Of a stretch of DNA of 64,000 nt, positions 1-32,044 are shown piece after piece. Location of the stretch: the NCBI GenBank assembly GCA_018902385.1, contig JABSSW010000044.1, positions 124,001 to 188,000 on the forward strand, read 5' to 3'. Made by a program: the position numbers and the translations under genes. Origin of the DNA: Physcia stellaris (lineage: Eukaryota > Ascomycota > Lecanoromycetes > Caliciales > Physciaceae). The notes beneath the pieces were generated by a model. The model was given only the letters and a program-made list of their open reading frames with translations, did no database searches and was not told the DNA's origin. Position 1 is the first letter of the stretch, and every line of letters starts with the position of its first letter.

Positions 1-1
1 G

Positions 2-6540: not shown

Positions 6541-7194
6541 CATCGAGCTTCGGTGAGGGTACCTCGGGATCTGGCTTTCTTTTCAATGGTGATATGGGGC
6601 AAGTAGTCTGTCGAGGCTCAGTCAGGCGTTTGGCGGTGGATCATAACGAGTGGATACGAGCATCACGGCATTTGCTTTTGGGGCGGCTGTCTTACGGCGT
6701 GAGCACTGAGCACCCAGAAAGACATGCGTGTTCATGTGAATAGTTCATCAGGGAGAGTTTGCGAACCAAAAGGCAAGATCAGCCCCTGCTTTGATCTCAC
6801 CAGATATTTCCATTCCTGCGCATTTACTTCCGGTCTATCGTATTCACGGTTCATCTCTCCAAAATTCAAGCTCGGAGGAAGCGAGTAGCTCCTTGGTATT
6901 GTGGGAACAGATAAAGCATGATTAGTTCGAAGAGATTTCGGGAAGTATTGACTGACAACATGTTAACCAATTCTTTGCCTGAAAAGAGAAAAGTCAATTT
7001 CCAAGCTAGGCAAACCGTGGCTCTGCCATCCGCTTCGCTTTTCGAGGGTCAACACTCCAACCTCCCAAAATAGATTACCAGCTTTCGCTAGCGCCGTATC
7101 GTCGGCTTATCAGCATTTTATTGTTTTTTCCAAGCTGGCACTGCAACAAGATAGCTTGTCACTCCTTCCCTCCTTTTCGCTGAAATTTCAATTG
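6541..7194. other. Intergenic region, PTC1 3' flank and NDE1 promoter
   Basis: No gene seen. The last 130 bases before the NDE1 start are pyrimidine-rich and presumably contain its promoter and leader. A TTG-initiated upstream extension of the NDE1 frame (from 7156) is open, but the first ATG is at 7195. Confidence 0.5.
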
Positions 7195-8991: not shown

Positions 8992-9357
8992 AGATCCGTA
9001 GGTTGTCTTCTGTTGAGATGTTCAGCGATACCATAATAGACGGGGATTGAATAATAGACGGCGATGGTGTTTACGCATGGCTTAAGGGTACTGGCACAAG
9101 GGATTCCATCCCTACTTTCTTCGGGGTACTGGGATGGTCATTTGGCTTCACCACTGGATCGATTAGATCTTTCATTATTGAGGGTGTGACCTTTTCATCG
9201 AAAAGAGCCTGAGTATCGTTGTTTTCAAGTGTTCAAAAACGTTCTGATTGCCGCAGCTTTCGAAGCATCTGCTCTGCAGCAAAGCTATTCAGAACATCTT
9301 TTCCGTGCTTCTTACGGGTTTCTCTTCGATCCCGAATCGCGACTGTCGATTGCATCC
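8992..9357. other. Convergent intergenic region NDE1/HEM3
   Basis: It lies between two stop codons of convergent genes. It should contain both transcription ends; no gene or clear terminator motif was recognised. Confidence 0.5.
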
Positions 9358-10560: not shown

Positions 10561-11136
10561 TGTGGTGGAGGCAAAGGTGGGATTGGGTTGTGGAATGCGA
10601 TTGGAAAGTTGATAATCTACAGTAGCGGTCTAAGAGATGAGCACCGTCGACGATGCCGCTTTCACATGCAAATATTTGGATATTCAACCCCAGCCCTAGT
10701 AAGCTGGAGAATTCCTAAACTTATCAGGATGATTGTCAAGACTGTATCTTCGTACTCCTACTAGTAGAGAGTAGATACTATGAAGATGCCATTGACGATC
10801 TTGTGTCAATTACGAACGAATATCAGGGAAGATTGGGTCGTTAGAACTTTGACTAATTCCACAGTTTGAGGAATTAAAATGAAAAATGATTCCCTGGCTG
10901 AACTTCACTTGGATATCCACCATCAATGTTGAATACCGCTTCATTGCTTATAGCTACACATATTCATACCAGTAGGCCAGTTGCCCTCCAAGTGACATAC
11001 CAATTGTAAACCAAATACAACGAACAAAAGCCGCTTCCCCAAACATGCGTGAGCAGTTCCATCTTAGATCTCCCTCGCTAGAAATGCTGTCGTATATAGT
11101 CGTATGTCGTAACGTCGTGTATGCCCGCCGCTAATG
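10561..11136. other. HEM3 upstream region and arrestin-gene 3' flank
   Basis: HEM3 reads leftward from 10560, so its promoter lies here. The arrestin gene ends at 11137 on the same strand. No other gene is seen. Confidence 0.5.
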
Positions 11137-13322
11137 TCATTGAGCAATCGCCTGTCCCAAAGGTAACCATGTCCTCCGTTCATCCATACTTCTATTGATT
11201 CTCCCGCCAGGCGTCAGAGGTAGCTCCATCCTCGTCCTCCTCATGATATCATCTTCATCATCTTCGCCAACCTCATCTGCCAATCTAGCAAAATAGTCTG
11301 CAAGGCCACTCCTTGGGTCACCGTCGATGACATTCTCGTACCTTGGCGGAGGCGTCATCAGTGGTGGCGGTGGGTCGTCGTCCTGGAAAGGCGGAGGATT
11401 GAAGGATGGAGCTCGGAGCAGATGCATTGGTCGTGGGGCCCGTTCGTTGTTGGGATCGTGGATATGGGCGGCTTGCGGTCGTGTTAGGCCTGCGGTGTCC
11501 GTCCTTATCGGGGGCGGCAGTTGCGGACCGTTGTTCAGACTTGAAGAGGAATCGTTGTTTCCTTCACGAAGGTGGTTCAATGATGGCATAAGTGATGACG
11601 GTGAGTTTCGCCGTTTTGCAGCGCCAGGACAACCACATTCTAGATGCTCAGTGAGAAGAGTAGCAGATTCAGGAGACGTGTAGGCGGGAAGAGCGATATT
11701 TGCTTGAGTAGCGCGACAAGATAGTATGTGAAATGGAGAGTCGATGGAAATTTCAAAATGCCGCCGTTTGGAAGGGTCGATCGCATCGGGTTTGGAGAGT
11801 CTCATAACGATCTGCGAGAGAACAATTAGTGGAGGGTAACCTAATCTGTGGACGGGAGACTGACCTTAATCCAGTGGTGTACTTGAATCCCACCATAGGT
11901 AGTGTCAAAATGGAGCCTAGCGATCTTGTCTCTTTCCTTCATGGTTTGGCAGCTGGGCAGTTGAACATTGAACTCCATTTCGGTTGGGCCAACATTGTGC
12001 TCCCCGTCCAAGTTACCTAGCAGATTCGACGTGTCTCGAGGGACACTTTCATCACCAGCGGCAGCAGCTACTCGACTATCGTAAGGTATCCCACCTCCAG
12101 CAGTGATTCGCATTGAACTACCAGGATAGGCGCTCGTACTAGCTCCATCAGCCCTTTTCTCGAAGAGCTGGATTTTTCTTGTCGGCTCCAAGCGATGGAC
12201 GCGTTTATTGCTTGTATAATATTGAACGTTTTCTGTTACAAAAACCTTGATTCTGTGGCATTGCACCTTTGCCAGGGGAGTCAACTTGAACGCAATTGGC
12301 ACTTGCGCTCCTAGCGGGAATGATTTGCCAGAGATAACGATATCATAGTGTAATTGGTCCTCCCAATTTCTTGAAATAGCAATGGGCTCAACCTGCTCTA
12401 ACGAGCCTTCGGATGGCGCTCGGATCAACGTAACCTCTTTTGACCCCACAAGATTGGCTCGGAAGGCCCCAGCTCTTTCAACAGTAGCTTCCAATTCATA
12501 CTTCACGGACCCCAGATCAACGCTGATGGATTCTGGAAGTCGTGAATCGATGGGTAGCTCAAAGTTGTAGATATAAACACCGGGAGTGAAGGTACGGTAG
12601 CCTTTCTGGGCCACATTTGAACCTCCATTTGCGGAATCACCCTTGCCAAAGCTGCGAGATTGGTTTACCTGTAGTGATAAACGCTTTGCATCTTTCGCGC
12701 TGAGGTGGGCATCAACAATTGAAGGTCTTTTTGGTTGCTGGGTGCCATTGGGACATTCAATCTCCCTGGTCGTCGTTGTTGGGCCCTTAAGAGGCTGTAC
12801 CTGGTCTGCGCCTGAACCATATTCCGCTGTCTGAAACTGAGCATTGAAAAATGGCCAGGTATGGTTCATGATGCTCTCCTTGTCTTTAAACTCGGTCTTT
12901 TTAGGGGGTATACCTTCGGGCCACTCCGTCTCTGCACGACCCCGGAAGTTCAATGAAACAGTCTTGATTTTTGCACTCTTAGATACCCGTAATGAAAGTG
13001 TCCCTCGCAGCATCGTAGTATTCCGATCCCCAAGATCAGACTGATCGAACCCTTGCAAGAATAGCATGGGCTCAGCCAAGGCAATGGACATGGAAATCCC
13101 ATTGCCCGAAGCCAGGAAGCTTTCTTCGCCCATCGCATTCGGCACATTTGCCCGTTGCACGCTGCCACTAGTGGGTCGTGTGGGAGACCTAGGGGCCTCG
13201 GATACAGATGCAGTCCTAACATTTTCCACCAGAGAAGGTCGATGTAACATCCCGCTCACAGGCCCTCCTACCACGAAGTTGCCCCCAGAATGTCCATATC
13301 GTATTCCGTCTACACTTGCCAT
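11137..13322 (-). CDS. Alpha-arrestin (arrestin-domain ubiquitin-ligase adaptor)
   Basis: Fungal alpha-arrestins bring the Rsp5/HulA ubiquitin ligase to plasma-membrane transporters to trigger endocytosis (family knowledge). From the ATG at 13322 the protein has about 710 residues in two exons. The intron 11812-11864 (GTCAGT...CTAAT...CAG) joins VHHWIK to IVMRLSKP. Arrestin-N features are LRGTLSLRVSKSAKIKTVSL followed by FRGRAETEW; arrestin-C features are SFPLGAQVPIAFKLTPLAKV and the VFVTENVQYY strand. The C-terminal tail is disordered and holds PPPRY near residue 640, a PPxY ligase-docking motif, plus LPAY. The true start is uncertain: the frame stays open upstream to about 13655 with plausible Ser/Arg-rich sequence but no ATG, so an extra 5' exon is possible. 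I cannot name the orthologue. Confidence 0.88.
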
Positions 13323-14805
13323 AACTGTAGAATGCCGAAAGTTTGGATCCAAGTGCACTATAGGCGTCGAGCTGCTCGGCGACGGCCCTGTGGAAGCGAC
13401 TTGATTGGTGCTGCAAGAGGACGTGACGAAGCGGAATAGCCGCTTCGCGTTCTCTCTGGATTGTTCAAGCTTTCTAGCTCCGAAAGTTCTCCGTGTAGAT
13501 TTCGCTCCTCGGCTTGTAGTAGTGGAAGCGCTTACACGACGAGCTGGAGCGTAGAATAAAGGCCGCGGCGGCAGGGGAGTTCGAATGGAGCTGTGGCAGC
13601 ATCGGAGGGTAAGCGTGAGTCCATTGTGAGCATGGTACTTGACGAATGACTAATGAGAGGATAGGTGCTCGATTGACAAGGCGAAGCAGCGACAGTAGGT
13701 TGTCAATATGAAAGGGCGACAGGATTGTCATACTCACAAGTGCTGTTTCTGCAATAGGCGCAAGGGCAAGAGTTTCAACAAAGAACTTGTTTCTGTCCGT
13801 TGCTGCAACGACTCTGGAATGCTTTCTGCAAATCGAACTGGCAACCAAAGTACTTAATGTTTCCAAGTGGATTCGTGGCGTTATGAGGTCTCACAAGGTA
13901 GGCACGGGCTTGGGGGTGGTCAGCTCAGAGGGCTGACATGGCAATGAATGGGTGAGTTGGAAAGGATGATGATATGGAAGGGGTCTAGCCTGGATTGTTG
14001 GCAATCCGGCTTGATTTGGCGGTTTCCTGTAATCTTCTGTCCAGAAAGGATGATCGACGTGCATACGCCGAGCGATGGGGACTTGGAAACAAGCTAGGCA
14101 ATCTCGCCGCAATCACTATTAAAGTGACAAGGCTTTCGATATCACATCTGGCACAACCACTTTCCCAGGGTATTTGTATTTATTATCTCTTCCGTCACTC
14201 ACTTCACGGAAGTCTTCCGATCGGTAGTGTATTTGCTTGATCAAGACTCGCAAAGCTTTAGAGAATAGTTCCTGGCAGAAGGGGAAGTGATGTGGTGCTC
14301 CGCTCTGCCCGTCGGGAAAACAAGACTGCTTCCGACGCTCAACAGGGTGTCAGAGCTTTACAATCGAAACAACAGGTAAACGGTGCAAGAGAAAGTGACG
14401 AAAAGGCAGCGTCAGTCGGTAAAATCGGCTCACGGTCTGCTTATGTGTTTCTCCCTCTAGTGCAGTCACCTCTTGCATCACCTTCCCTTCCCCGCTCTCA
14501 TGGAACTGATCATGAATAATCCCTGTCTTAGCTAAGGTAGATCGATTGAGCAACTCTGTACACGGTGCCGTTGTCGCTTGAGGTATTTTGTCCAACTGCG
14601 GGCGGACCCACGTACGCAGGCATTTGCAAGAACAGGTCCAGACTCGGGGCACTTTCCGGGCAAAAGCATGATGAATCCGGGAAATATTCCATGCGAGCCA
14701 CGCCAGATTTACAGTACACTCTAAATCAACTAGTACCTTATCTCCGAGCCGATCAAATGGATCAGTCACGTGCCAGCGTCTTCACGCTTTCTCCAAGATA
14801 GGGCT
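13323..14805. other. Arrestin-gene upstream region up to the inverted-repeat element
   Basis: Normal composition. Bases 13323-13655 read in the arrestin frame without stops and may be an unmodelled 5' coding exon. A different reverse-strand frame over 13474-13866 is also open (130 codons). No gene is recognised between about 13870 and the left inverted repeat at 14806. Confidence 0.4.
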
Positions 14806-14839
14806 ACTACCTTAGCGGGCGGAGGGGGTCCTAGGAAAT
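14806..14839 (+). repeat. Left terminal inverted repeat
   Basis: GC-rich 34-bp end whose core reads CCTTAGCGGGCGGAGGGGGT and continues to CCTAGGAAAT. It matches the reverse complement of 28627-28660. It keeps CpC, CpT and GpG steps that are almost absent just inside, so it escaped the mutation that hit the interior. Confidence 0.9.
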
Positions 14840-15470
14840 TAACCCTGGATAATTAGTTAGTTATCGTTAGTCAGCAATCGTCGAAACTTCATCCGAATAG
14901 CATTCACAGTTTAACATAATATCGATATCGAATTCTTGAAGTTTCACATTTGATTTCATCGATCGATTTCGTGTCGATAATCGAAATACAATTATCGACG
15001 ATTGTCAATCGTAATGCAATCGAAAAATGAGTCAATGATTAATGAACTCGACGATGATTGCAGATTTTCGATGTCGTGATTTAAACAATATTGCAAAAAT
15101 AATTGTTTTTTGTCAATTCAACGAAAAATGTGTAATTTGAAATAAACAAATGATAAAAAAGTCAAATGCACGTAAATTTGATGTTTTCATCATTTGTATG
15201 AAATGAATAATTTTTCAAATTCAATGATTGAATTTTTGAAAAAATTGTGTAAAAATAAATCATTTTTCGACTATTCGATTGTTAAAAACATAAAAAAAAT
15301 TTCTCGATCAAAGAAAAAAAAATGATTTATTGAAAAATAATCATTTTTGAATCATGTGTTTTTTCGCATGATTTTGTTGATCAACGATGAGTTATCACGA
15401 ATCATGTCACGATTATTTCACAGCAAAAATGATATCCGATTCATTTGTGTTCGAGAATTCAATGCAAACG

Positions 15471-15565
15471 AGAAAAAGAAACGAAAAAAAAAGACGAAAA
15501 AACTCAAAAAAAAAAAAGAAAAAAAGAAAAAAAAAAAAAAAACGAAAAAAAAAAGACGAAGAAGA
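15471..15565. repeat. A-rich low-complexity tract
   Basis: Nearly pure adenine on the + strand, broken by single G or C bases (GAAAAAAA and ACGAAAA patterns). It creates Lys-rich mirror ORFs with no coding meaning. Confidence 0.7.
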
Positions 15566-16938
15566 AAACGACGCGAAAAGAACGATATTTCGCAACAATT
15601 TGAAAAACTTTTATAAAGTTCGAAAAAATTTCATATTCACAATCTGAAAGTTTGCTAATCGATCGAGCGAAACAATCGATAATGATTCAATTGTAAATTT
15701 CGAAATTATATTGCTGTATCATATAAGATTTTTCGTTTTTCGTAACGTTTTTGAAAAATTTCAGACTGTATGATGAATCGAAAACTGAAAAAATGATTAT
15801 GCAATTCGTTATCAATTGCAAAAATTTTCACTCGTTTCATTTTCGAAATTTCAGTTTTTTTCATTTTCATTTTTTGATTTTGAACAGAGATATTCTCGAA
15901 AATGAAATTAAATGAAAAGAAAATCGTCGTGCACATTGCTTATGTCATGAGCGAATAATCAAAAAAATTTCGAAACAATTAGAGTTCTCATCAATTCAAT
16001 ATAAATAACGCAATGCACAGTTTAAAAATATCGAAAACTAAATGAAAAAAAAACGTCAATAAATGTCAGTCACACAATTTTTCAAGCGTCATGTCAAATC
16101 TGATAGAAATTTCAAGCGTTATGTTAAAGTTGACAACGCAAAATGAATATTTTATGATCGCATAAATAGCAAATAAATGAAATAAACAAAAGCAAAAATC
16201 GAGACGAACACAACAACGTTTGATTGAAATAGCGCAACATGAACAATAAATAAAAATGAATTAATTCTCGACAGCGTTTGTCGAAAAAAATCAATAAACA
16301 AAAATTTCGAATAAAAAATAAAATATTGAATATTTATCAAGTTTTGATAGTTTTAATCGAACAAATGAATGAAATCAAAATCATTTTTGAAGAAAAAAAC
16401 GAGCGTTTTTTTTTTCATTTTTTTTCTTTTTTGTATATCGCGCAAACGCACGAATTTATTCGATTTAAAATTTTTGTATTTATTCTGTTTAGTCATCGTG
16501 TCGTAAAATTTCACGATTCAGATGTTTCATAAATACTTGAATTCGACAGAATTTTTCAGTCAGTCGAGATGAATTTTTATACGAACGATCAAGTTCAGAT
16601 ATATGATTACAAAAAAAATGAAATGAAAAATGTTTTCAGAAAGATGCGAATAATTCATTTTTCATAAAGTTCATCATTTTCGAGAAGCATTTGAATCAAT
16701 CGATCAGTTTAAAAATAAATTGTCAGTTATTTTCGATTATTTGAATAGCGTGCTTGTTTCAGATATTCGCAAAAAATCTTTTAAGCAATTTGAATTCGCT
16801 GATGCTATCATAAATTTCGTCATTTTTTTTGTTCAACGAAATAGCATTTTTTACATGATTTTAAGCTCAAGTGAATCAACAAAAAATCAGCAATGAGTTG
16901 AAAACACATATTTTGAGTTTTTTCAAATGTTCACATTT

Positions 16939-17235
16939 TCAATTAGTCATCAAATGTTTGTATTTGTTTTTAATTTCTCGATATGTTTCATCATTTTCGT
17001 TCATTTTTTCGAAAATTTTCTCTATTTCGTAATCAAAGTTTTCATGAATGTAATATCGAATCATGTTGTAACGATTGTTTCTTTCTAATTTGTTGCACAA
17101 ATTAAGAAATTTTTTTTTGATTTTTTTTTCGTCGTTAATTGCTGTATCGCAATAAATTTCTTTTTTTCGCTTTTGAAAAAATGCGTGATTTGACGTAATG
17201 ATGTTCGAGCGATAAAAAAACGAAAAAAAAAACAA
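16939..17235 (-). pseudogene. AT-rich open frame, unrecognised decayed coding relic
   Basis: A reverse-strand frame of about 98 codons with varied composition (Asn, Glu, Tyr, Arg) rather than pure Lys/Phe. A short similar block (FQKR..K.I.YDTAI) recurs at 15706-15936 on the same strand, hinting that both come from one family or a duplicated part of the element. No function is assigned; it may be chance in AT-rich DNA. Confidence 0.25.
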
Positions 17236-18892
17236 ATTGTTTTCATTTCGTGCAATTTGCGCATTTCAAACTATTAATATAAATTGTAACGAGTGATTCG
17301 AAAAATATTCACATCGTTGTTTGAGAAAAAGTTCGTGATGTCATCACGACTCAATGTGAAATTGTCATCGTTTTTTTGAAAAAATCATGTTTAATTTAAA
17401 CAAATGATTTAGAAATTATGTAAAGAAATTTAAACGACAGATTCGCAACAGAGTACTGATCAATACAATGCACAAATGAATCTTGAAAGTGAACAATAAT
17501 TGCTCGAAAAATGAAATCGAAACGAGCGAAACGAGAAATTTTTGAATTTTCAATTGCGATTAAAATTCAACTCGTTTAAATTTTGACGCTCATCTTCGCA
17601 TCACAATCTTGCGTCATTTTTCAATTCAGATTCTTCTAATTTTTTCAATAGATTTCGCTTTTTATTATTTCTTAAGATATTTCGACAAATTTTTTTCGAT
17701 TTGTTCGCAGAATCATGTTTTGATTTTTCATCATTTTTCGCAATTTTGCATTTAAGCACATGCGTTCATTGATTTTGTTTTTTTCATCAATTCGCATTCG
17801 TAAAGTCAAGTCGCGACATCAACGCATACATTTTCGCTTGTTTCAAGTACTCAAATCGATGCGCTGAAAGTTTTAAAATTCAAAATTTTTTTCGTTTGTC
17901 GTTAAATCGTCTGTCTATCGTATTGACGAAAAAGCATTGCGATTTTCATTATTTTTTCGAAAATTACAGCATTTTCTTGATTTCGAAACTTTGTTTCGAG
18001 TTGAATTTCACGATTCGTCGTTTTTAAAATTGCGTTTTCAATTTGAATCATCTTTTTTTTTTTTCGATTTCAGTGCTTGATGTTTTTTATTTCTATTTTT
18101 TCAAAAACACAGACACGACTATTTTTCAATTCAAATTCAATATTGAAGTTTTTTTTCGATATTTTTACAGAAATTTTAGCTAAAATATTACGATTGATTC
18201 ATTCATATGTCGTAAAAATATGAAAGAATTCGTATGATTTGTTATTGAATCAAGATTCATGTTAAATTTTGTCATGATTTTGAATATACAATTACAATTA
18301 ACATTTTAACATTCAACAAAAATTTATATCTTGTCAATTCGACTGTATCTCTATTGTTTATGATGTGTTTTCACTTGAATTGATGAGTGAAAAACTTAAT
18401 GAAAAATTCTGAAAATGACAGAGAATCGTTAAGAAATTCGTGAAAAAATTTAAAAAAAAGATGAATATACAAAGAAAAGTGAAAACGCAACGTTGAAATA
18501 AATTATCTGTAAATTTCATCTGTCGTGTTTATGACGCGATATTTTCGTGCAAATCGTGAAACAATTCGAATTTTTGTTTTGTGCTTGAGACGATTTCAAT
18601 ATTTGAACGTTTATTTTTACTAAATTATCGTGATTTGTTGATGTCGTTTCTTTCTTGAAGTCATTGTAAAATGTGATCAATTGTTCAAAAATACAGCGCT
18701 ATTTCGATTTTTTCAATTTCAGTTTTTCTCGTAACGATTTCAATTGTCATTTTCAGTTAACGCAATTTTTGTCTTGCATTAAAAACGCGAAGTTCAAAAT
18801 TTTTCGTTCGCTATTAATGTCGAAAGTTATTCTCGTCTATTTCGAAATATTGTATTTGTGATGATTGAACGAAAATTGTTATAACACGCAAA

Positions 18893-21800
18893 ATGTTTCG
18901 AAACGCAATGTTTCATCGTCGTTTTGTTTTTAATTTTCAATTTTTCGCAAAATTCTTATCGAAAAACGAAGAAACTCAAAATAATGTGAAAAATGAAATG
19001 TTATCAATTATTGTTTCAAGATTTGACAAACTCACAAATTTATTAAAAATCGAAAAAAACTTTAATGTTGCAAATGACAATGAAAATCATGAAAAAACGC
19101 GCTTGAACGACGAAAACATAAAAAAATTGTTTTCACGTTTTCGACAAAAAACGCATATATCAAAAAACGCAATAAATGTTGTTTCGAATCACGAAAATAT
19201 TAAAATTAACGATGAATTTAGAATGCGAACAAAATTTTTCGATTTTTGCGACGATCATGAAGTCAAAACTCGAAATTGCGAAAACATTTTTCAACTCGTC
19301 GCATCAACAAAATTTGAAAAGAATATCGATTTTCGTTATTTCGAAAAATTTATTGCTTGTTCAGTTTCAACAGCTTGTGAATGTTTTGAAAAAATTACAA
19401 TTTGAAATCGTTGACGTATATGACGAAAAAAAAAAATTTCGAAAATGATAAATTTTAATTCGATAACAAACATTTCGTTCACAATGTTTTTTTCGTCATT
19501 TCGTCGCGCGTTCGTTTTTGATCGCGCGTTCGTTTTTGATATTTTTGAAACGTTATTTTATTAACGAGTTGATTTGTTATTGAGCGATTTCGTCATGATT
19601 TTCGCAATTTGAACGAAAACAACGAATTTTATTCGCGTCATTTACAGTTTTTTTCTTGAGATTTTTTGACTGTTTTCAAGTTTAAATACTTTGAAGAAAT
19701 TATTTGAAATTTTTGACATTTTCAAAATTCGATTTCGCGTTCAGTTTTTTTTATTATCTTTACGATTTCAAAAAGTCAAAATTGAACGAAAACAACAATT
19801 CAATTTGTCAATTACATCTCGTGAAAAATCAAGAAAAAACATTCGAAATTTGATTTTTTTTGATTTTATATTTTTGATGTCGCGTTTGTTTTTTTCGCAA
19901 ATTTTTTCATCGAAACAGCATCGTGATATGACAAAAATCGTTAATAAATTTACAAAATTTTATCATTTTTTCAATTGAGTTTTTTTTATTCGTTTCATTT
20001 TCGATGTTTTCGCTTTTTATTTCGATAAATTTTCAATTTTTTTTTCGAATTTTTTGAATTTTGAATTGAACGACATTTTGCGTTTAAATCGTTTGACATT
20101 TGTGAACAAAAACATGCGAAATTCGATTGCGATCAAAAGCAAAATGACGATGTACGTTCAAAAAATAATTCAAATCAAAAATTGACAAAATCTTTGAACA
20201 ATTTTTGTGAATGACACGTTGTTTAATAACATTTCGTTTGAAACAAATGAATTATTGCTGTTCGAAAATCGAATTCATTACATTTTTGAAAAGCATGTTC
20301 GTCGTTGAAAAAATGACGTTTACAATAATTGAATTTTCGACGATTTCAATGAAAATTTTCATTTTTTTGACATATTCAAAAAACGTTATTTTGTCAAAAA
20401 AATTCTTAATGTTAATCAACAAAAAATTCGAATTTTTAATTTATTCGCATCAATTCGAAATGAATTAAAAATCGCAACATTTGATCGTCAATATTTTACA
20501 ATGATTTTTTTTTATCGCAAAACAAATATGATTGAAATAATTGATCAATTCGCACGAAAATGTGTGTCGATGTCATTTTTGATGTTTTTGAACGAATTTG
20601 AATTTTTTAAAAACGTTTATCGATCGATGATAAACGTTTACATTATTTCAACAATTTTGAATTATCGAAAACGCAATCGACGCGCGAATTGCTTGATTTT
20701 GATTTTGAAATTTCACGAAATCAAATTCGTTAATGTTGTCGAAATTCTCATCGAAACATTCGCAAAATTTGACAAAAATTTGTTGATGAATATTCAAAAA
20801 AAAAAATTGTGTGCGTTTACATTAAAGTTTTCATAAAAAATATGTTTCAACAATATCACAACAAAAAATTCATGATTTTCGCGATCATTTATGATTGCAA
20901 TTTTTGTTTCATAACTTTCAAGAAACGCGCAAATTTGAATTTTGATATTTATTTTCGAAAGCGTTATCATTTTTCGATTTTGAATTATCGCGAGAAAATT
21001 GATCGTCGCAATGCGATCGCAACGATCAAAAAAAAATTTTTCAACGTCGTTGACATGTTTGAGTATCAAACGTCGCTCATTCAATTTATTTTTGTTTTTG
21101 ATATCATACGTTTTCGATCAACGAATATGATTCATTCTGAGTTTCGCGATTTGAATAAGATGACGCAAAAGTTATTATTCACAGTTATTTTATTCGAGAA
21201 ATTTCAATTCGTTTATCTTTTCGAATTTCAAATCTTTTTTTTTTTTTTTCATGATTCAGAATACAATTCTCAAAGAGACATTTGAAAATATGATCAATGT
21301 CGAAAACGAATCGCGTCATCATAATTATTCTTGTATTATTGCGATGTTGATTTCGAAAAAGCATTTTGATACACGATATCGACGAACAACACAACGCGTA
21401 TTTTCTTATGATATGACTGAACACAACATTACGATAATTGACGTTATTGTTAAATGTTATGTTTGTTTCGCTGAAAATAATGTTATCATCATCGCATTCG
21501 TCATTCGTGCTCGAACAAATACAATTATGTTCGAAACACGTTCGATCATACAAAAGTTACTCGAAGCAACGCGACAAACAAAATCGACATCAACGATCAA
21601 AAATTTTTCGCGCAATCGAGTCATATCGATGAATTCAATAATCAATGTAATTATTGATCATCGTAATAAATCGAATAGTATAAAAGACGATTTTAGAACA
21701 AAATTTGTCGAAAACGATTTGTTGCGAAAAAATTGAAATGATGAAAATATCAGCAAACAGACACAATTTTTTCAAAGACTTAAAAAGCGATCTAATATGC

Positions 21801-22368
21801 ATGTGAGATTGCATTATGAAAATGTAATGAAAAAATTCGCTTTTTCAAGTAATTGTGACATTTTTTTGATGAAAATAGACATCGATATGTTCATTCTCAA
21901 AAAGATTGACTATTCTAATTATTGTAGCTTTTTTAAAAGCATAGCGTCGCATATCAACGTCGTCAATGTCGAAATCACGTTCATGATTCGTGAGAATTTT
22001 CAACAGATTATTCGTTTCGTTTTCATCAACGTTTTCGTCGACATTGAAATTTTTTGACTATTCAATTGCAAAAATTTGAAAAGAAATGTTTCGAATTGAT
22101 GCGAATTATTTTATCAATTTTTGAGCAACGTTTGACGATCGAATCAGAAATCATCATCACAGTTATGAACGAAAATGATCAGATTCGCGCTTTGATGTCT
22201 GAAAAAATAAAATCAACATTTGTTCAAAACATTTTGAAATTATTCATTTCTACGCGTCTTTTCGAAATATTGAATTTTTTTCATTTAAATTACGCAAAAT
22301 CTACGAAGTTAATTACGAAGAAATCAATTCAACACGATTTGATATTAATACTTTGCGATGATATTTGA
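18893..22368 (+). pseudogene. Decayed transposase-like coding region
   Basis: A colinear series of + strand open frames (around 18893-19405, 20211-20468, 20501-20836, 20809-21285, 21251-21736, 21797-22057 and 22054-22368) sharing one AT-shifted character. Blocks near 20570-21170 resemble, as far as I recall, a conserved stretch of large fungal transposase-like proteins. These include an N-R-RN-RRAN block, a Q-Q segment followed by a C-x2-C pair (NFCF), an LDFD/Y-like block, an NYREKID block and an HSEFR-L-KM block. The changes fit G-to-A and C-to-T mutation. This region is broken many times and cannot code for a working enzyme. The assignment to a KDZ-like DNA transposon rests on memory of the family and needs a profile search. 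Confidence 0.45.
19504..19540 (+). repeat. Two-copy 18-bp direct repeat
   Basis: CGCGCGTTCGTTTTTGAT occurs twice in tandem within the AT-rich arm. Confidence 0.7.
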
Positions 22369-25307
22369 AAATCTCGTTCACAAACAAATAAAAAGTGATT
22401 TTATTTTGCAATTTTCATTTTTTTCATTCGAACAAAGATTGAAATCATTTTCGAATCAATGATTATTTGAACATTGTTGTTAACGTATCAATAAATTTTT
22501 TCAAAAGCGTTTTATTTTCAAAATCGAAGATTTCATTCGCTGTCGCATTCACGATTTTTGTCAAATCGATCGCATTTTTGTTCACGAATTTCGTTCGAAA
22601 CAACGACGAGCTTTTCTGATGATGACTGTAATGAAAAAAAAAAAAAAAAAACGAATTCGATTTTTCGCATGTTTTTGATGCATTTTTTCGATATTCAATT
22701 GATTGTGAAATTTTCAAACGTAATGACTCAAAACATTTGAATATTATTCGTGAAACGAAAAAACAATCGTCTTGAAAAAAAGTTACAGTCTCAAAAGAAC
22801 ACATTTCTGTTACGTTGCTTTTGAAATATTCGTTTTTTATAATAACTATTCAATACGAACTTTGAAAAACAATATACAGCGAAACATTGTCGATGATCGC
22901 AAAAAAATGTGTTTAATGACAAATAAAAAATCGATAACTGTCAATTTTCATCTTAATTGTGAGAACATTAATTAGATAAAATTGTTATTTATAGTAAAAA
23001 TCTATTCTCAAAATATTTTACTTTGTATTTCTCGATTGATTTTCGTCGTGATAACGTGATTCGCTAAAAACACGTGATTTTTTTCGCATTTTTTCGACAT
23101 TTTTTTTTTTTCGTTCGTTCGAATTCATCGTTTTCATTTTCGCTTTTGCGATGTATTTTCATTTCATTCTGAAATCAAATTTTGAAATCATTGTTTTTGT
23201 TTTCATTATCGTCAATTTTTTCAAAAAAATTCGCTGAGCAATTTTGAAACTCAATGAACGCATCGTCGTCGTTTCAAAGTGATCGCAATATTCAATTTTA
23301 AAGCTTTTTCATTTATGTTTTTCACTTTTCGCAGCTTTGTCATTTCTGCGAAAAGTACATAGCGAGTCTTGAAACATCACACACTTTTTTTCGTTAAAAC
23401 GAGTTTTTTAGTTAATTTCACGAATTATTTAGCTGAACATGTCGCTATTGTCGTTACAAACGAATTTGATCTTTCAATTTGTTTTTATTTTTTTCTTTTG
23501 ACATGTCATTGTTAATTGTATTTTTCAGATTTTCAATTCACAATTTACGTTATTTTGAACACACGTTTTTGTTCAAAGACAATTAACATGTTTTTTCATT
23601 TTTTTTTTATCAACATCACAAATTATACGAAAATTGTTTTTGCATTTTAGATTTGTTATTTCATGAAAAAATCTGTGTGTATAATTATATTCGTCAAGTT
23701 GAATCATGAAAATTGTTTTCGTATGAATATACACATCATGATTCATATTCATGTTGTACACAGTTTTTTATACGTTTTTCACGTTTTTGTTTTGAGCACG
23801 TTTTCGTCTGTTTTGATATCATGATTTTTATGACATACTGAATGAAAAATCTTAGAATTGCAAAAGTTGATTGTGAAAAAATTTGAAAAAAAATGAAAAC
23901 AACGAACGACACATCGACAATTCGTGAAAAAAACGTTTCGATGAAATGTTGAATTCGACATGTTTTTCGAAATGTCTGTGTTTGCGCATGAGATTTAGAG
24001 AAAATTCGATATTGCATTTGATTTCGAGCATATTTCAAAAAGTAATTGTGTTGCGCAATATTGATTTTGAATTTCTGATGATTCGAAATGAAATGAAAAT
24101 TGTATACATCGAAAATCGCTGACATTGATTTTAAATTTATTCGCAATATTTAATGTTGACATTTTTCGTTCATTTTACATTTTGCAATGTTTGTTCGCTT
24201 AACGTTCAGTTGCTATTTTGTTTTTGAATTTATTTCGATCTCAACATTTGAAATTGAAAAAACGAAATGATTCGCAATTTGTTTTTGCGAAAATTGCTTT
24301 CTAGTCGATCATAACGTTATTTTCATTTTTTTTTTTTTTTTCATAAATCGTTCAAACTGTCGCGATGAGCATAACAGATGAGATTGCGTATGTCAATTAA
24401 CAATTGTCAATGCGTTTTCATGATTTAAATTTGAAATTAAAAAAATCAAAAGTTTGAAAAAGTTTGAACGAGTGCGAAATACACAAACAAATTTTCATTG
24501 TTTTGTCAAAGTGTTTTTGAGTCAAAACAATTGTTTCGAGATTTGCAATTCAACAAAAACAATTTTGTGAATAAAATGAAAGATGAATTTTCGAATTTTT
24601 TTGAATTTCAGATTTTAATATATCGAGCGTCGATTCTTTTCAATGTTTATACATTTTTGAAATAATTTTTGCTTTTTTCGTTTCAGTCATTCAAATTACA
24701 ACTAATTTGTTCAGCATTCTCGATGCGTTTTATTATATTTGAAATTAAAATGATCAATGAAAAAACAAACACGAATTTCACACATATTCGAATTTTTCAA
24801 TTTCAACTGTTCATTGTCACATTGAAATTCTGTTCTCGATAAAATATGATTTGAAATTTCGATCAAATCATACTCTATAATGTAGAAATCGAAATTATGA
24901 AAATCCGAAACGTGAAATGACTTTTCTTTTCTGAAATGTTTTTTTTTTTTTTTTTTTCAGCTCATTCGATGTCGTTTCGATATCGATTTCAATTTTAGTT
25001 TCATCAATTGTCAAATTTTCTACGATACATTTTTCGTTTCGAACAATCAAGATTGTTTGAGAATTTCAATTCAATCATTTTCAAGAATTTAAATTTGATC
25101 AATTTGCAAGTTTTGAATTTACAGTTTTTGAGTTTCACATTTTCGGATTGCACGTTTGTTCGTCGCAAACTCGAGTTTTTCGCGAATATGTCAATTTTTA
25201 CAAAATAATTTTTATACAATCATTTCATTTTCAATAATTTCGAGATTTCAACGTTTTTTTCATGAAATATGTGAAAGTTTTTTTTTTCGTTGAATTTTGC
25301 AATTTTT

Positions 25308-25440
25308 TTTTTATAGCAAATTTTCGTTTGCGACAAATTTTCGTTTAAGACACATTTCTTTACGACAAATTTTTTTACGACACATCTCTTTCTGCGACAA
25401 ATTTTTTTTTACGACAAATTTTTTTTTACAACGTATTTTA
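25308..25440 (+). repeat. Degenerate tandem repeat, CGACAAATTTT type
   Basis: About seven imperfect copies of a 15-17 bp unit (variants of ACGACAAATTTTTTT and GACACATTTCTTT) at the inner end of the left AT-rich arm, just before the island of normal composition. Confidence 0.6.
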
Positions 25441-25604
25441 TCAATGCGTATCAATCATGACAATTCAACAAACAACGAAAAATTGTTTGTTTGATGTAAC
25501 AAGATGTATCAATAAAAACGACGAAATAAACGACAATATGTAATCAATAAAATTCAATTTTTTTTATTTTGATTGTTCACGATTGATATCAAAACATGAC
25601 AAGT

Positions 25605-26473
25605 AGGCCCGGAAGTTTTTTTAAAAAAAAAACTTTGTCGAGAACTCTTAGGGTTAGGGTCAAATCTGATAAGATTACGAAATCAGAGTTCCTTGCGATC
25701 TCATCGATTTCGCACCTTAATAGCTTCTTGACTCAGTAAGTAAACCATACATTCGAAGGCTTGTTTTGAAGTACGAAGTGAGCACTATTCAAAGAATCAA
25801 AAATATCGAAAATCGAGCGAGTGCGCATTGAGTTATGGTGGATATGACATTGTTGCTTCGCAGGCGTTGTTGCGGAGTTGTTCTACAGGCACATTTCTAG
25901 CATGACCTTTCAAGTCCCAGAACTATTGCGATAATGAACCGATTTCTGTTATTTTTGCAGCGTTGGAATGCGCTCATTCTGCTCTACAATTCTGGCTAGA
26001 TAAGTGGAAATTATACTTGATTGCTGATTGATGTGCAGGTTGTAAATCAACTGCAACAACAAACTACATTTTTGGTGGTTGGCCGCCAAGTAGACCCTGA
26101 GCTAGCTAAATCGGGAAAGAGTGCCGCAAATCTGAAGTCCATAACTGGGGGTCTCAATGCCAGGCATGGAGTCTGAACTGCAGAAATTGCAGTCATTTGA
26201 CCATATCTTCGAAGCATATCATGGTTCTCGATTGGGTATAGCGCAATAGGGTATCAGGATAGATTTGCCCTGATATTGGCCATTCTGGATACTATGTACA
26301 TATGCTGGTCCCAGAATTCTGACTGGCCTGGCCATCTGCGGCAGAGATATCGAGAATATGCCATACAAATCGGGCCTGTTTCTCCAGCGAGGTCTTCTGG
26401 CTTATTAAGGCTCGAAAAGCTCGAATCTGCAGTCTTTGCATCGGTGTATGCCTGCGGAAGTGATCCGCGCATG
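25605..26473. other. Left part of the unmutated island, no gene recognised
   Basis: Base composition changes abruptly to normal near 25605. No convincing ORF is found before the 12-bp repeat array; the open frames here are short and overlap that array. Confidence 0.5.
25648..25659 (+). repeat. Two telomere-type TTAGGG units
   Basis: TTAGGGTTAGGG sits about 45 bp inside the normal-composition island, right next to its junction with the AT-rich arm. It is the standard filamentous-fungal telomere unit, but only two copies are present. Confidence 0.6.
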
Positions 26474-26581
26474 GAGGCATTCGGTGAGGCATTCGGTGAG
26501 GCATTCGGTGAGGCATTCGGTGAGGCATTTGCTGAGGCATTTGGTGGAGCATTCGGTGGAGCATTTGATAAGGCATTTGGT
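26474..26581 (+). repeat. 12-bp minisatellite, nine units
   Basis: Four perfect copies of GAGGCATTCGGT are followed by five diverged copies. The unit length is a multiple of three, so every frame stays open (EAFG repeats on +, HRMP repeats on -). It lies just 3' of the passenger gene (stop at 26620). I judge it non-coding. Confidence 0.85.
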
Positions 26582-26619
26582 GGAGGTCGATTCGGCCTGA
26601 AGAGGGCAATTCGTGGAGG

Positions 26620-27801
26620 TTATATCGACCATGGCATACTCGAGTAAAGCTCTCTTTTTTGCTTCCATTTATGCTCGTCTGCTTCGGTTCTCAATTCAAC
26701 CAACTCGCTCCATTGCACTCCCTCGTCGTCGTCAGAACGATTGTCAGAATCGATCGATTCGTCGGTCATATATGTATCGTCCGACTCATCAGAATCGTCC
26801 GGCTCGTCTGGCCAAGCTGAATGCTTTTCCCTTTCTATTCTTGTTGCCTCCGCTTTCACTCTTTCGTTCGCCTTTTTCGCCCGCTTGATATCCTTTGCAA
26901 GTTGAGCTTCTTCGGGGGTTGGGATATTGTGTGGAGGATCAAGTTTCCATCTCTTTCTTTGCATCGCATTGCAGGCGTATTTCGTCAACGATTTGAGAAG
27001 AAAACGACTGCTATGTCTGACTATTTCCTCCCTCATATGCAAGCGAATTTTCTCCTCATCGTTGGCTCGAACAGCCGTAGAAAGAGGAGAGTAATACTTC
27101 TTGAATTTGCAATGAGCATAACCACTCCATACAGAACGCTCCGTCCAAGGTTGAAAACGAAAATGCTCTTGAAACAAAGCCCCTCCAGACAGTCCTAACC
27201 GATATTCGAGATCCGAAGAAAGTTCTCCATTGATTCGTATGATTTCAGATCGTTCCAATCGCCAAAAGTATTGAAAGATCTGACCCTCCCAAGCTTCCTG
27301 ATCCTTTTGCAGCAGTTTTTGCTGTGATTCCACTTGAGAACGCGTATGTGTCTTAACCTTTGAAACATCGAATGCAACGTCAAACATGGGACGTGCTTTA
27401 GTCATTGGATCCTGAATAATAGCTGGCTGTGGGACCGGATAGATTCCAGGCTCTTGTCTATCCAACGTCATTCCATTTCGGCCATTGATTGTGTAGTGAG
27501 GCTCTCGAAACTCGACGGGTGTTTGAGGTGTAACAGTCATTGAATGACATTCGTAGGGAGCGCTGATTTCGATCGATGCAGCAGCAGAAGTAAAGGTAGA
27601 CGTAGAAGTAGGAGTAAGTTTCTGGAGAGCACCCCGTTTCTCTCGCTCTTTGGCATGGCGATTTGCTGCACCACGCGAACGCGCCGTAGTAGGAAGGCCT
27701 AAATCCAACGTCAGCTGCATGATTTGTTGGGATTCGTTGAAATTCTCGTGGTTGAGTTGATATGGAGTTGAAGTTGATGTTGTTGTTGGTGTTTGGATCA
27801 T
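26620..27801 (-). CDS. Passenger gene of the element: 393-residue protein of unknown function
   Basis: A single uninterrupted exon of normal composition between two heavily mutated AT-rich arms. I do not recognise the family. The N-terminus is Thr/Ser/Gln-rich. A basic patch near residues 40-57 (SRGAANRHAKEREKRG) could bind nucleic acid. The centre is mixed and apparently folded, with aromatic blocks (EGQIFQYFWRLERSEIIRING, SVWSGYAHCKFKKYYSP) and a Lys/Arg-rich helix. The last 75 residues hold a Glu/Asp/Ser-rich acidic stretch (DEPDDSDESDDTYMTD) before a basic end. No signal peptide or membrane segment is seen. It is probably nuclear, but that is inference. It may be an element-encoded accessory protein or captured host cargo. 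An intact frame inside a decayed element suggests either selection, recent arrival, or protection from the mutator. Confidence 0.7.
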   Translation of the reverse strand: MIQTPTTTSTSTPYQLNHENFNESQQIMQLTLDLGLPTTARSRGAANRHAKEREKRGALQKLTPTSTSTFTSAAASIEISAPYECHSMTVTPQTPVEFREPHYTINGRNGMTLDRQEPGIYPVPQPAIIQDPMTKARPMFDVAFDVSKVKTHTRSQVESQQKLLQKDQEAWEGQIFQYFWRLERSEIIRINGELSSDLEYRLGLSGGALFQEHFRFQPWTERSVWSGYAHCKFKKYYSPLSTAVRANDEEKIRLHMREEIVRHSSRFLLKSLTKYACNAMQRKRWKLDPPHNIPTPEEAQLAKDIKRAKKANERVKAEATRIEREKHSAWPDEPDDSDESDDTYMTDESIDSDNRSDDDEGVQWSELVELRTEADEHKWKQKRELYSSMPWSI

Positions 27802-28626
27802 CGAACCCCGAATCCATCAATTTGTATGCGATCAAAACTCCGCATTTCAATAACTCGATGCGCCCACGTCAGAATTTAACAAACGTTACAGTATTGGATT
27901 CCCCTCATTAAACTCTACAACTTTGACTACATAAACAAAAATCATATCAAGTTCTTGGTTGGTGTGCAATGTGCGAAAAAGTTGCACCAAAACTTTGATG
28001 TTCTTCGCCAAGATTGGTCTAACCCAATAAGGAAGTAAACTTTTGTAGAGGAAACGATAGATATTTTTTTATAGGTTGTGTTCTATTCGATTATTTCAAA
28101 ACGATTTTTAATCATTGTGATTCAATTTAATCATAATTTAATGATTGTTAATTTAAAAAATCATACGAAATATCAAAACTATTATAAGATAATCTTGATA
28201 TTATTGTGTGAATTTTATATTGTTACGTTCAAATTATTGTAAAATGATGTGATTTGTTTTTTGATTGACAAAACTTTATCATTTATTAATTTTTGTTTTT
28301 CAATAATTCAATGCAAATTTTAATTATTTTAAATTGTTGTGTTTGCGCATATTCTTTTTGATACATTATGATTGTATAACGATTGAATTGCGCATATGAT
28401 TGAATCACGTTAATTAATTTTCGTTCATTTTTTGCGTTAAATTATTTCAAGCATGTAATAATTTCATTGTCATATTTTTGATTGTAATTATAAACTTGAT
28501 ACAATAATTAAAATTCAATTTAATCATTGATGTATTCAAATATTGATCAAAGTCAATGTCTGCAACTGCATCCTGCAAATTTCAATGATAGGTTTCAGGC
28601 TGCTAACCTATAATAATCCTAAGATG
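27802..28626. other. Passenger-gene upstream region and right AT-rich arm
   Basis: Bases 27802 to about 28080 are of intermediate composition and probably hold the passenger promoter. About 28080-28600 is AT-rich with the same shortage of ApG and CpT, though milder than in the left arm and with more TpA. No gene is seen. Confidence 0.5.
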
Positions 28627-28660
28627 ATTTCCTAGGACCCCCTCCGCCCGCTAAGGTAGT
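28627..28660 (-). repeat. Right terminal inverted repeat
   Basis: Reads ATTTCCTAGGACCCCCTCCG and continues CCCGCTAAGGTAGT, the exact reverse complement of the left end. Its outer edge lies 63 bp before the DPB11 start codon. Confidence 0.9.
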
Positions 28661-28723
28661 GTGTCTACGCGACTCGTTGCGGAGAACCCCACCACATCCC
28701 ATGTTCAATTGGAACATTTGACC
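28661..28723 (+). promoter_or_regulatory. Residual DPB11 upstream segment with an ACGCGA box
   Basis: Only 63 bp separate the element end from the DPB11 ATG. They contain ACGCGA at 28667-28672, similar to the MluI cell-cycle box (ACGCGT) that drives G1/S genes in yeasts. A six-base match is weak evidence; the notable point is how little promoter remains. Confidence 0.25.
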
Positions 28724-31663
28724 ATGGCAGAAAATGGAGAATACAGTAAGCTCACTCCTCGCTCTCGTCAGGAAGAGACTCCTAATGATCAATCAGCAAA
28801 AGCTCAGCTCCCTTTGCTGGGCGTCGTCCTTTGTTGCACCTCCGTTCCCCCAGAGAAGCGCGTAAGTCATTCCGCGAAGAGTTATTGTCATGGGATGCCC
28901 CCTGACAGTCATATGCTTGTCGCATAGTCAGATCTGGCTTCAATTGCCTCGCGTATGGGCGCCGTCCATAAATTCGATCTGACATCCGATGTCACCCATT
29001 TAATCGTCGGAGACTCCGACACACCAAAATACAAATTTGTCGCCAAAGAACGCGAGGACGTCAAATGTCTCCTACCAAGTTGGATAGAAGCTGTACGAGA
29101 GGCATGGATGGAGGGTGAAGAGGTCGATGTTGACATTCTGGAAAAACAACATGCTTTGCCGACATTTGCTGGATTGAAAATATGTGTCACTGGGTTCGAC
29201 GACTGTAGGTCAAAGTCACAATGATGAGCTGCGAGAGTTAGGTCTAACTCATCGTAGTGGCTTACCGTCGAAATTTGGAGGAACTCATCAACGAGAACGG
29301 TGGCGAATATCGTGGTAATCTCACCAGAGACATTACCCATCTTATCGCAAAGGAGCCATCGGGAAACAAGTATAACTATGCTGGACAATGGCATATCAAG
29401 ACAGTCTCGAACGAATGGATGCAGGATAGTCTGGCCCGTGGTATGATACTGGACGAGACATCTTATAGTCTGTTACTACCCCCCTCAGAACGAGGGCGCA
29501 CGGCTTGGCTACGTAAAACGGCCTCTGCAACTTCTCTTGGTAAAAGACCACGCGAAAGTGAGCTTGGAAAGCCAAATTCCAGGAAGCTGAGAAGAACAGC
29601 AAGTGCCAAGCTTGGCAGTGAGAGCTCCGGAATATGGTCCAACATCGTGGGTGAACCCATCAATCAAGACCGCGTACAGCCGGACAAGTGGCAAGATGGG
29701 GTCGAAATCGCCGCGCCGGTCAAGACGGAATTTGGCTCAGCAGACATTGCGCAGACTTCAGGCGAGCAGAGGTTTAAGGATGAGCAGGCATCTGGGCCCA
29801 GAGCTGGTCACGATCCACACAGAGTGATTCGAAAAGCTGGCATCTTCGAAGGCAAAAGGTTCATCATATACGGCTACGGTGAAAAGAAGGTGAGTGCTGC
29901 ATGATTCAGTTGCGCAATTGCCCTGCACTGACCGGTTTTAGACCAACATTCTACAACGGCATCTTACATCTCACGACGCGGTCATACTCGGCGAAGTCTC
30001 ATCTCTGCCCTATCAAACCTCGGAAGGTCCTTCTAATGATTATTTCCTCCTTGTTCCTCATGCAATGCCTAGCAACAGTGTACCTGCTCCGCCTCAAGGT
30101 CTACAGCAACCAACAATCGTCACAGATCTATGGTTCGAAAGGTGTCTATACAAGAAAGTAATGATATCCCCGTCTGCGCACGTTCTAGATAGACCATTCT
30201 TTAAATCGCCCATTGAAGGTTTGCAGATCCCCCAACTCTAAAAACACGGCTGATAGGCAATAGGATTTGAAGATATCACTGTCTCTTCTACAGCGTTCCA
30301 CGATGTTGACCTCTTGCATATCTCGAAGATAGTGCCATTAATTGGTAATATATCAGGATACTGCTCGAGTAAGTACTGACAGCAGATAGGGGCAAACTTC
30401 AGCGAAGAATTGACTCTGAACACTTCGGTCCTGATATGCTACGAAGTGGTTAAAAGTAGCTCGAAGCGATCGTTTGCATACGAACATAGAATCCCTACAG
30501 TGACTGCCGACTGGCTTTGGGACTGCATTAGGAGAAGGGAGTTGCTGCCTTTCGACAAGTACCTCACGCAGCCTATCGTACCTAAACGCGAAGCTGTTGA
30601 GCATGTAACCCTCGAGACTCCGAAACCAAGTAATCTCAATGAACCCAGTAAAGCCACGACCCTACTCGGGCAAAAAGGCAGCGGTGCCGCAAGTCCCAAC
30701 TCAGGGAGCAGCAATCCCAAAGACGCGATGAAGACTTTAGCTCCGATGCGTCACAGCAGTACAACCTCCTGCGCAGATACCTCTTTCGACGCAGAGTCAG
30801 ACACCACCGTTACCAAACATTCTTCGGCCACTACCCATCCCCAGACAGTTCCACTCCATGAAATATCTGCGAATGCATCGCCAAAACCTTCACCCTCGCC
30901 GCCGAAACCTCCCTCTCAACATCCCACAAAGACGGACCACACACAAGAAGAGCCCCCCTCAAGTCTCGGTCCCGCTATCTCCTCCCTCCTCGCCCATCAC
31001 CAACGCGCCGTCTCGAACGCTGCCGAGCGCCCACCTCTCGGCCGCCGAAGACGCCAACTCCTCGGTCGCGCACCCTCCAATCTCTCCAATCGCTCACTCT
31101 CCCGCGCCAGCAGCGTCGACACCATCAACACCGACGGCCTAGGCACTCCTCTAGAACCCTCCAACCACTCCGTCCGTCCTTCTCAGTCCGCCCACGGAAA
31201 GGCAGCAAACTCTAAGCTGAAGGATACGAAAGACCCGTTCGCCACCCTGCGAGCGTATGCGGAAGAGGCGGAACAAGCCGAGAGCCAGCAGAGCAAGGAC
31301 GTGCAGTTGACGCAGCTGGGATACGAGGATCCGGATGTCAAGGCTTGGAGGGATAGGGTTGTGAGGAAGATGGGTGGGGGTGAGGAGCTTGACGCGGAGA
31401 GCCAGGCGAATGGGAGGGTGGCTACTGGAAGGGTGCTGGAGGATGTGTCGTTGGGGGCACGAGGGGGATTGCTGGACGGACAAGAGCTGGCGGGAGATGA
31501 TTGGGATAGGACTATTGGATGTATCAAGCAGGATATATTGTACGCTTTTGAGAGGCAGTGGATAGCCGTTTATTTGGGTAATGACCAGCTGGGTGTCCGG
31601 TTTGTCTTCAATAGAGAAATTTCATGGTGTGAACCACATTGTCAAGTCGTCGTGTCTGTGTGA
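28724..31663 (+). CDS. DPB11: DNA replication initiation and checkpoint protein Dpb11/Rad4 (TopBP1 family), four BRCT domains
   Basis: Scaffold that binds CDK-phosphorylated replication factors to load origins and activates the ATR-type kinase (family knowledge). I infer six exons: 28724-28861, 28928-29204, 29258-29889, 29942-30218, 30264-30344 and 30390-31663, 892 residues, all phases consistent. BRCT1 is at about 15-100 (LLGVVLCCTS...SRMGAVHKFDLTSDVTHLIVGD) and BRCT2 at about 108-190 (LKICVTGFDD, GGEYRGNLTRDITHLIAKEP). BRCT3 starts near 337 (FEGKRFIIYGYGEKK) and BRCT4 is at about 442-535 (ITVSSTAFHDV, TVTADWLWDCIRRRELLP). A Ser/Pro-rich tail follows. The intron with donor GTTTGC at 30219 is weak. 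The C-terminal end may hold one more unmodelled intron. The start at 28724 has ACC ATGG context and lies only 63 bp from the transposon end. Confidence 0.9.
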
Positions 31664-32044
31664 TAGATCAGATATCTAGGACTGATGCCCGATGAATTTG
31701 ATATAACGACTTGCCTCCTCATTGGATCTTTACCTCACGGGAATCTGCCATCATATCTCTGGTTCACAAAAAGGTTATGCATTCAGTATTCGTCTGGTCA
31801 GACAGACATGTGGCCAAAAGGCAGAAGAAGCACATAGGAATACAAGAAGCACATAGGAATACATTTCCAACATTTACTATGTATCAAGTGACGAGTGAGT
31901 TCCTTGATCTGCCTTCTGTTCCCTCAGGGAGATGCTAAGCCGCATTTCCCTCCCCAGCTAAACTCCGACCCTTAACACCGTCGCCACCATCGCCATGCTC
32001 CATCATGCAATCTCAGCTCCTCCCACTTCCCAACCTCCCAGCAT
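31664..32044. other. Convergent intergenic region DPB11/FZO1
   Basis: It contains both 3' ends. A 19-bp unit (AGAAGCACATAGGAATACA) is tandemly duplicated at about 31827-31864. No gene is seen. Confidence 0.5.

Follow-up and report, generated by a model that had tools for sequence, protein, structure and literature searches.

What kind of mutation removes cytosines that precede a pyrimidine and keeps those that precede a purine? The question is raised by a 13.86-kb element bounded by terminal inverted repeats (TIRs) in a 64,000-nucleotide window of the genome of the lichen-forming ascomycete Physcia stellaris (assembly GCA_018902385.1, contig JABSSW010000044.1, positions 124,001 to 188,000, forward strand; coordinates below are those of the window). 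The initial annotation of this DNA had proposed that CpT and CpC are erased from 14840-25605 while CpA and CpG are spared, the reverse of the CpA-directed pattern of repeat-induced point mutation (RIP). Its hand count for 20281-20760 proved exact (CpA 29, CpC 0, CpG 30, CpT 3; TpG 31, ApG 1, GpG 0; TpA 21), and the loss recurs across the whole left arm of the element (14840-25604, GC 27.1%), where five CC and two GG are left; near-expected CpC and CpT counts, named there as speaking against the proposal, were not seen. Observed/expected ratios in this arm are 0.03 for CC, 0.01 for GG, 0.35 for CT, 0.49 for AG, 1.39 for CA, 2.81 for CG and 0.38 for TA. In the surrounding DNA the CC ratio is ordinary, at 0.89 in an unmutated island (25605-27900), 0.96 in 1-14839, 0.96 in 27901-45000 (a block that includes a small second mutated tract) and 0.92 in 45001-64000. 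The depletion of cytosine before pyrimidine (CpY) is thus confirmed, and it exceeds what was originally claimed.

Densities relative to the flanks (1-14000 plus 29501-64000, both strands pooled) give the same picture in absolute terms. For 14900-25550, CC falls to 0.002 and CT (CpT/ApG) to 0.302 of flank density, CA, CG and TC stay at 0.918, 0.919 and 0.948, and TA and TT rise to 1.21 and 2.85. Because the absolute densities of CpA and CpG are nearly kept, their high ratios are not a mere enrichment against falling GC content. From the loss of CC and CT, the gain of TT, the near-constant CpA, CpG and TpC, and the fit of a simulation that allows C-to-T alone, we infer C:G to T:A change, a conclusion reached from composition rather than from an ancestral sequence. 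The strand symmetry that had been noted is borne out as well, with CC 2, GG 1, CT 189 and AG 242 remaining in the main tract.

When a two-state Markov model with the arm and the flanks as training sets was run across all 64 kb, it marked two CpY-erased tracts only, both inside the TIR pair. The main tract (14910-25602, 10.69 kb) keeps two CC and one GG and corresponds to the extent first claimed; the second (28076-28551, 476 bp), with no CC and no GG, lay outside it. Together the tracts hold 3 CC/GG where 1,344 would be expected at flank density. Their edges are sharp and lie within the element, 104 bp from its left end and 109 bp from its right end. The element itself (14806-28660, or 11.38 kb without the island) is delimited by a left TIR at 14806-14855 (plus strand) and a right TIR at 28611-28660 (minus strand), which are both unmutated. 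The 50-nt arms agree at 44 positions, including all of the outer 34, and retain their G and C runs (CC and GGGGG in the left one). With up to three mismatches allowed, the outer 17-mer of the TIR occurs at two places only in the window (0.03 expected). Read inward, the right end is CACTACC and the left end TACTACC, which we take to resemble the ends of CACTA-type TIR transposons, a group with a short target-site duplication and a transposase of its own. No transposase family was found by Pfam in the scanned read-through stretches, and the TIR 20-mer had no exact match in viral contigs or in bacterial and archaeal contigs. A further copy of the TIR decamer GCTAAGGTAG at 14531-14540, 266 bp outside the left end, is perhaps a relic of another insertion. 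In a self-homology search in purine/pyrimidine code against the rest of the window, the A-rich stretch 15278-15700 of the main tract gave overlapping matches on the left, to about 9.95-10.07 kb, with scores of 104.6, 88.4 and 82.2 compared with 81.4 for the reversed control; these are probably of low complexity (an A-rich array lies at 15466-15571). On the right the best score, 53.4, stayed below the 55.2 of the control; the best island score, 44.8, comes without a control.

The context rule was examined by mutating flank DNA under many rules, covering 4,096 settings of 3´ context and as many of 5´ context, and comparing the resulting k-mer spectrum with that of the arm. Untouched flank resembles the arm poorly (trinucleotide r 0.09). 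The best rule based on the 3´ base mutates CpC at 0.99, CpT at 0.8, CpA at 0.1 and CpG at 0, and reproduces the arm closely (dinucleotide r 0.998, trinucleotide r 0.995, Kullback-Leibler divergence (KL) 0.009). Rules that place CpA first (best r 0.83, KL 0.20) or CpG first (best r 0.89, KL 0.21) were poor descriptions of the arm, as was the best rule based on the 5´ base (trinucleotide r 0.74, KL 0.23). Thus the arm shows neither the CpA preference with rising TpA of RIP, nor the CpG targeting of basidiomycete hypermutation, nor the 5´-base preference of ultraviolet light, APOBEC or AID, the densities of CpA, CpG and TpC all being close to those of the flank. Among surviving CT there is a slight 5´ effect, with GCT retained more often, and CTNC is mutated above expectation.

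Could this be RIP of a kind already described, which hits CpT as well, as in Magnaporthe, Botrytis, Sclerotinia and Colletotrichum truncatum, so that no new rule is needed? CpT-biased repeat families are on record in the available parts of PMC4352252 (Table 2), PMC6180176 (Table 5), PMC7882544 and PMC2621366, DIM-2 methylation is said to prefer CpT (PMC13297926, in part), and CpC depletion accompanies CpA loss in Stagonospora (PMC2621366). However, CpC is the main target here and CpA remains near flank density, so that this explanation is contradicted within the window by intact CpA; the families tested in PMC6180176 have TpA/ApT ratios of 0.93-1.68, compared with 0.42 for the tract. We consider it quite unlikely. 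The RIP indices of the tract (TpA/ApT 0.42, (CpA+TpG)/(ApC+GpT) 1.47, composite -1.05) are in fact RIP-negative, with composites of -0.59 and -0.63 in the flanks.

Change in the CpY context also leaves a distinct trace in codons. It creates stops only from TGG, as TGA, while change at CpA makes TAA and TAG from CAA and CAG. A dead reading frame of 1,130 codons (18818-22207, plus strand) contains 3 TAA, no TAG, 23 TGA and no TGG, no glycine and no proline codons, and 34 glutamine codons (CAA/CAG); ten flank open reading frames (ORFs) used for comparison have 7.2% glycine, 6.1% proline and 1.0% tryptophan. This frame has TAA or TAG at 3 of its 1,130 codons, and the two remaining plus-strand frames have them at 52 of 2,258 (p 9e-7, an optimistic value since the frame was picked after stop-free runs had been seen); the three minus-strand frames over the same stretch, with about 1,130 codons apiece, have 23, 23 and 44. 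The longest stop-free run in the arm, 431 codons, lies within a second-order Markov null (maximum 508 in 200 runs); the claim of a reading frame draws on the in-frame deficit of TAA and TAG and not on the length of any single run. This codon-level result supports both the direction of the change and the rule independently of an ancestral sequence. Together with composition and the fitted forward simulation, it backs the view that cytosines before a purine are spared.

A frame that is nearly open except for TGA, in AT-rich DNA of about 11 kb with inverted repeats, is also what foreign or organellar DNA inserted in the nucleus might look like, for example a mitochondrial linear plasmid in which TGA encodes tryptophan, and no targeted mutation would then be needed. 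Yet 1,130 codons without glycine or proline are implausible as a working protein, and a CpG observed/expected ratio of 2.81 with CC and GG near zero fits a mutation rule acting on flank-like DNA. Searched with TGA read as tryptophan and E values up to 5, the read-through frames had no Pfam match in the stretches scanned (plus strand 16500-25604 and minus strand 14860-23900); phmmer, at E values up to 10, found no match to the read-through frame in PDB. On the Pfam scan and the composition of the dead frame, we rejected an origin as naturally AT-rich or organellar DNA, which we regard as highly improbable.

The few sites that escaped share one context. The CC at 15436 (15434-15440, plus strand), the CC at 24905, the GG at 25145 and a further site at the left edge (14893) all lie in ATCCGA(A/T), a context that accounts for 13 of the 5,838 flank CC. 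The three survivors within the tract are no more than 0.7 kb from one of its ends. Either ATCCGA(A/T) resists the mutator, or it is protected or restored.

The intensity of mutation varies along the element. Loss of CpT/ApG is greatest at 19900-20900, with 11 per kb compared with about 134 in the flank, while CpA+TpG+2xCpG stays near flank level (0.241 compared with 0.250 per bp). As a ratio of these two quantities, the minimum is 0.069, compared with 0.42-0.67 across 471 overlapping flank windows, and no 1.5-kb window as low appeared in 5,000 permutations of the bins. The fit places the centre of CpT loss at 20500, with a profile interval of 20300-20600, a bootstrap interval of 20300-20700 and values of 20400-20500 in six binnings. 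Midpoints are 20498 for the element without the island, 21733 with it and 20256 for the main tract alone. Because the centre matches the island-free midpoint, the data are suggestive of an element mutated as one 11.4-kb unit that received the island later.

The island (25603-28075, 2.47 kb) lies unmutated between the two tracts; its CT is ordinary and its CC somewhat reduced. It carries an intact ORF of 393 aa on the minus strand (26620-27801) and was probably inserted after the mutation. Alternatively, the whole element mutates and selection lets only its ends and a mobility gene survive, so that TIRs and island merely look spared. The spared parts are indeed the two ends and the stretch with the intact ORF. 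However, the 1.0 kb of island to the left of the ORF still has 98.5 CC+GG per kb, compared with 120.4 in the flank, too many to be explained by selection alone when 0.2% of CC survive in the arm. We therefore think selection in place of targeting very unlikely. The ORF product, which has an acidic stretch near its C-terminus, matched no Pfam family at E 0.001 (the single sub-cutoff match was Cwf15, E 0.031), and its three phmmer matches in PDB (E 0.032, 0.035 and 1.5) were judged to be chance; no relatives were found in viral contigs. Helices are predicted at low confidence, and the fold model is too poor for use (mean predicted local distance difference test score 43.9). The island also contains a 12-bp tandem array, GAGGCATTCGGT, in 9.1 copies at 26474-26582 and, just inside its left edge, two telomere-like units, TTAGGGTTAGGG, at 25649-25660.

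We propose that this TIR element probably underwent hypermutation of both strands through a RIP-like C-to-T process that targets the element and follows a +1 pyrimidine rule, with CpC far above CpT. The composition, the 3´-base rule, its action on both strands, its confinement to one element in 64 kb and the ordinary state of flanks and island are observed. The earlier suggestion of a mutator with a different context holds as a two-strand C-to-T change governed by the 3´ base; it is refined in that CpC is hit much more than CpT and that the unit is a single TIR-bounded element. In the mechanism we envisage, repeat recognition would mark the element during the sexual phase, as happens in RIP, and cytosines before a pyrimidine would be targeted, CpC much more than CpT, with CpA and CpG mutated little or never. 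The enzyme might be a C5-methyltransferase-type RIP enzyme of the RID/DIM-2 class or a dedicated deaminase with a +1 pyrimidine preference. The smallest step would be for an enzyme of the former class to have exchanged a +1 purine preference for a +1 pyrimidine preference, since the base that follows the cytosine in RIP contexts varies between fungi and this variation has been linked to Dnmt1 subfamilies, as described in the available part of PMC4352252.

The event may have struck guanine instead. CpY to TpY is identical to RpG to RpA (R, purine), and thus an O6-methylguanine-like change of G after a purine to A, with the element as the site of the lesion or of its non-repair, would leave the same trace. 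It is the 5´ C of CC that is altered (trinucleotide densities of 1.76 for TCA and 0.28 for CTA relative to flank), which is compatible with such an event, and the temozolomide/O6-methylguanine signature SBS11 consists of C>T at CpC and CpT according to the available part of PMC12556801. Given this shared context and the identity of the two changes, deamination is at most a putative origin of the pattern. Exposure to a guanine lesion would, however, be expected genome-wide, and the sequence bordering the tracts shows nothing unusual. SBS11 follows chemical exposure and, as far as that source describes it, is not confined to one element; here both tracts lie in one. A guanine-side origin thus appears unlikely. 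We know of no local lesion source or repair failure with such sharp edges.

Several points weigh against RIP-like targeting under a +1 pyrimidine rule. The element is present as a single copy in the 64-kb window, and its TIRs, which any mobile copy would share, are spared, something that Neurospora-type RIP does not obviously predict. Neither the element nor the island has a convincing target-site duplication: with offsets left free, the element ends have chance-level repeats of at most 4 bp, and the island edges have short AT-rich or chance matches only, among them TAGG (4) and TGTTC (5). The simulation uses the flanks as a proxy for the lost ancestor and models C-to-T alone, and its best fit requires about 10% loss of CpA. 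Compared with the main tract, the second is lower in CpG (10 in 476 bp) and has double the density of TpA, and the rule alone may be insufficient there; either this tract was more AT-rich initially or some CpG was lost too. The 23 TGA of the dead frame exceed the roughly 11 predicted from 1.0% tryptophan in flank ORFs, and the excess may come partly from CGA through CpG change or from non-coding parts; the choice of that frame after inspection counts here as well. The match of the CpT-loss centre to a midpoint is post hoc, three midpoints having been compared, with that of the main tract falling just outside the interval.

A broader idea, which we put forward tentatively and at somewhat less than even chances, is a genome-defence mutator with CpC far above CpT and with CpA and CpG nearly immune, which would produce transposons free of CC and GG, rich in CpG and missed by standard indices. 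In its boldest form this would be an element-targeted RpG to RpA change that involves no cytosine methyltransferase.

The flanking DNA contains matches to CAND1, PP2C, NDH2, arrestin, BRCT, dynamin, porphobilinogen deaminase, Snf7, a Zn2Cys6 factor, GT90 and Chs7, a chaperone for chitin synthase export. These genes mark the host as a fungus, and the style of the sequence suggests Pezizomycotina. An 8-bp array, GTCAAGTC, is found at 47598-47853 in 32.2 copies with 98% matches.

How does this process relate to known ones? Loss of CpC and CpT with CpA and CpG nearly untouched was not found in the literature searched, of which parts were available, and an earlier report in the literature on RIP and CpC is possible. 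No CpY rule appears in the available parts of PMC4188875, PMC6730849, PMC13207899 and PMC4858203, and those of PMC11969663 and PMC7296669 do not address context. In the portion available of PMC4352252, CpC is no named signature and the term is absent, the fungal signatures given being CpA, CpT and CpG. Change at CpT beside CpA is described there and in PMC6180176. In ascomycetes capable of RIP, CpT change dominates the alignments (PMC7882544, in part), and in Neurospora Tad1 it exceeds CpA change (PMC2621366, in part).

Like Neurospora-type RIP, which is premeiotic, limited to repeated DNA and dependent on RID or DIM-2, the process described here apparently changes C:G to T:A on both strands of a mobile element only, with sharp edges and adjacent genes untouched; unlike it, it hits CpC far more than CpT, largely spares CpA and CpG and leaves the TIR ends intact. 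The CpT-biased repeats of Magnaporthe, Botrytis, Sclerotinia, Colletotrichum truncatum and Stagonospora share the targeting of CpT but, as far as the accessible parts of PMC4352252, PMC6180176 and PMC2621366 report, usually lose CpA as well, with TpA rising. An exception is formed by short rDNA (ribosomal DNA) repeats of Stagonospora with CpT change unaccompanied by CpA change, for which the authors doubt RIP (PMC2621366, in part). Among basidiomycetes (Rhizoctonia, PMC4014442; CpG-only genomes, PMC4352252; both in part), the likeness is an excess of C-to-T, and in Rhizoctonia CpC is even the densest class (Table 2 of PMC4014442: one single-nucleotide polymorphism per 214 bp, with 370 for CpG, 422 for CpA and 491 for CpT). 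There, however, the authors call the pattern CpG-biased, both genes and repeats are affected, and changes occur at CpA and CpG as well, whereas in this window the change is confined to one element and CpG stays at 0.92 of flank density.

The distinction matters in practice. RIP surveys commonly use CpA/TpA indices, and such indices score this tract as negative. The outcome for genes also differs under CpY change, in which stops arise only from TGG and glycine and proline codons are removed, as in the dead frame. A CpY rule would moreover make it testable what part of a RIP enzyme reads the base 3´ of the target cytosine. A screen published in 2025, which covered 1,239 fungal species, concluded that a preference for CpA is common to RIP-like defences, and its 130 species with strong recent signatures fall in four ascomycete classes (PMC12543289, from the text available); because its k-mer screen is context-agnostic, the published tables can be re-read for a CpY signature. 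Finally, the anatomy of the element matches that of mutated DNA in a lichen fungus rich in RIP, for which sharp edges and later, GC-normal insertions are described in the available part of PMC12542154, where CpA and dinucleotide terms are absent.

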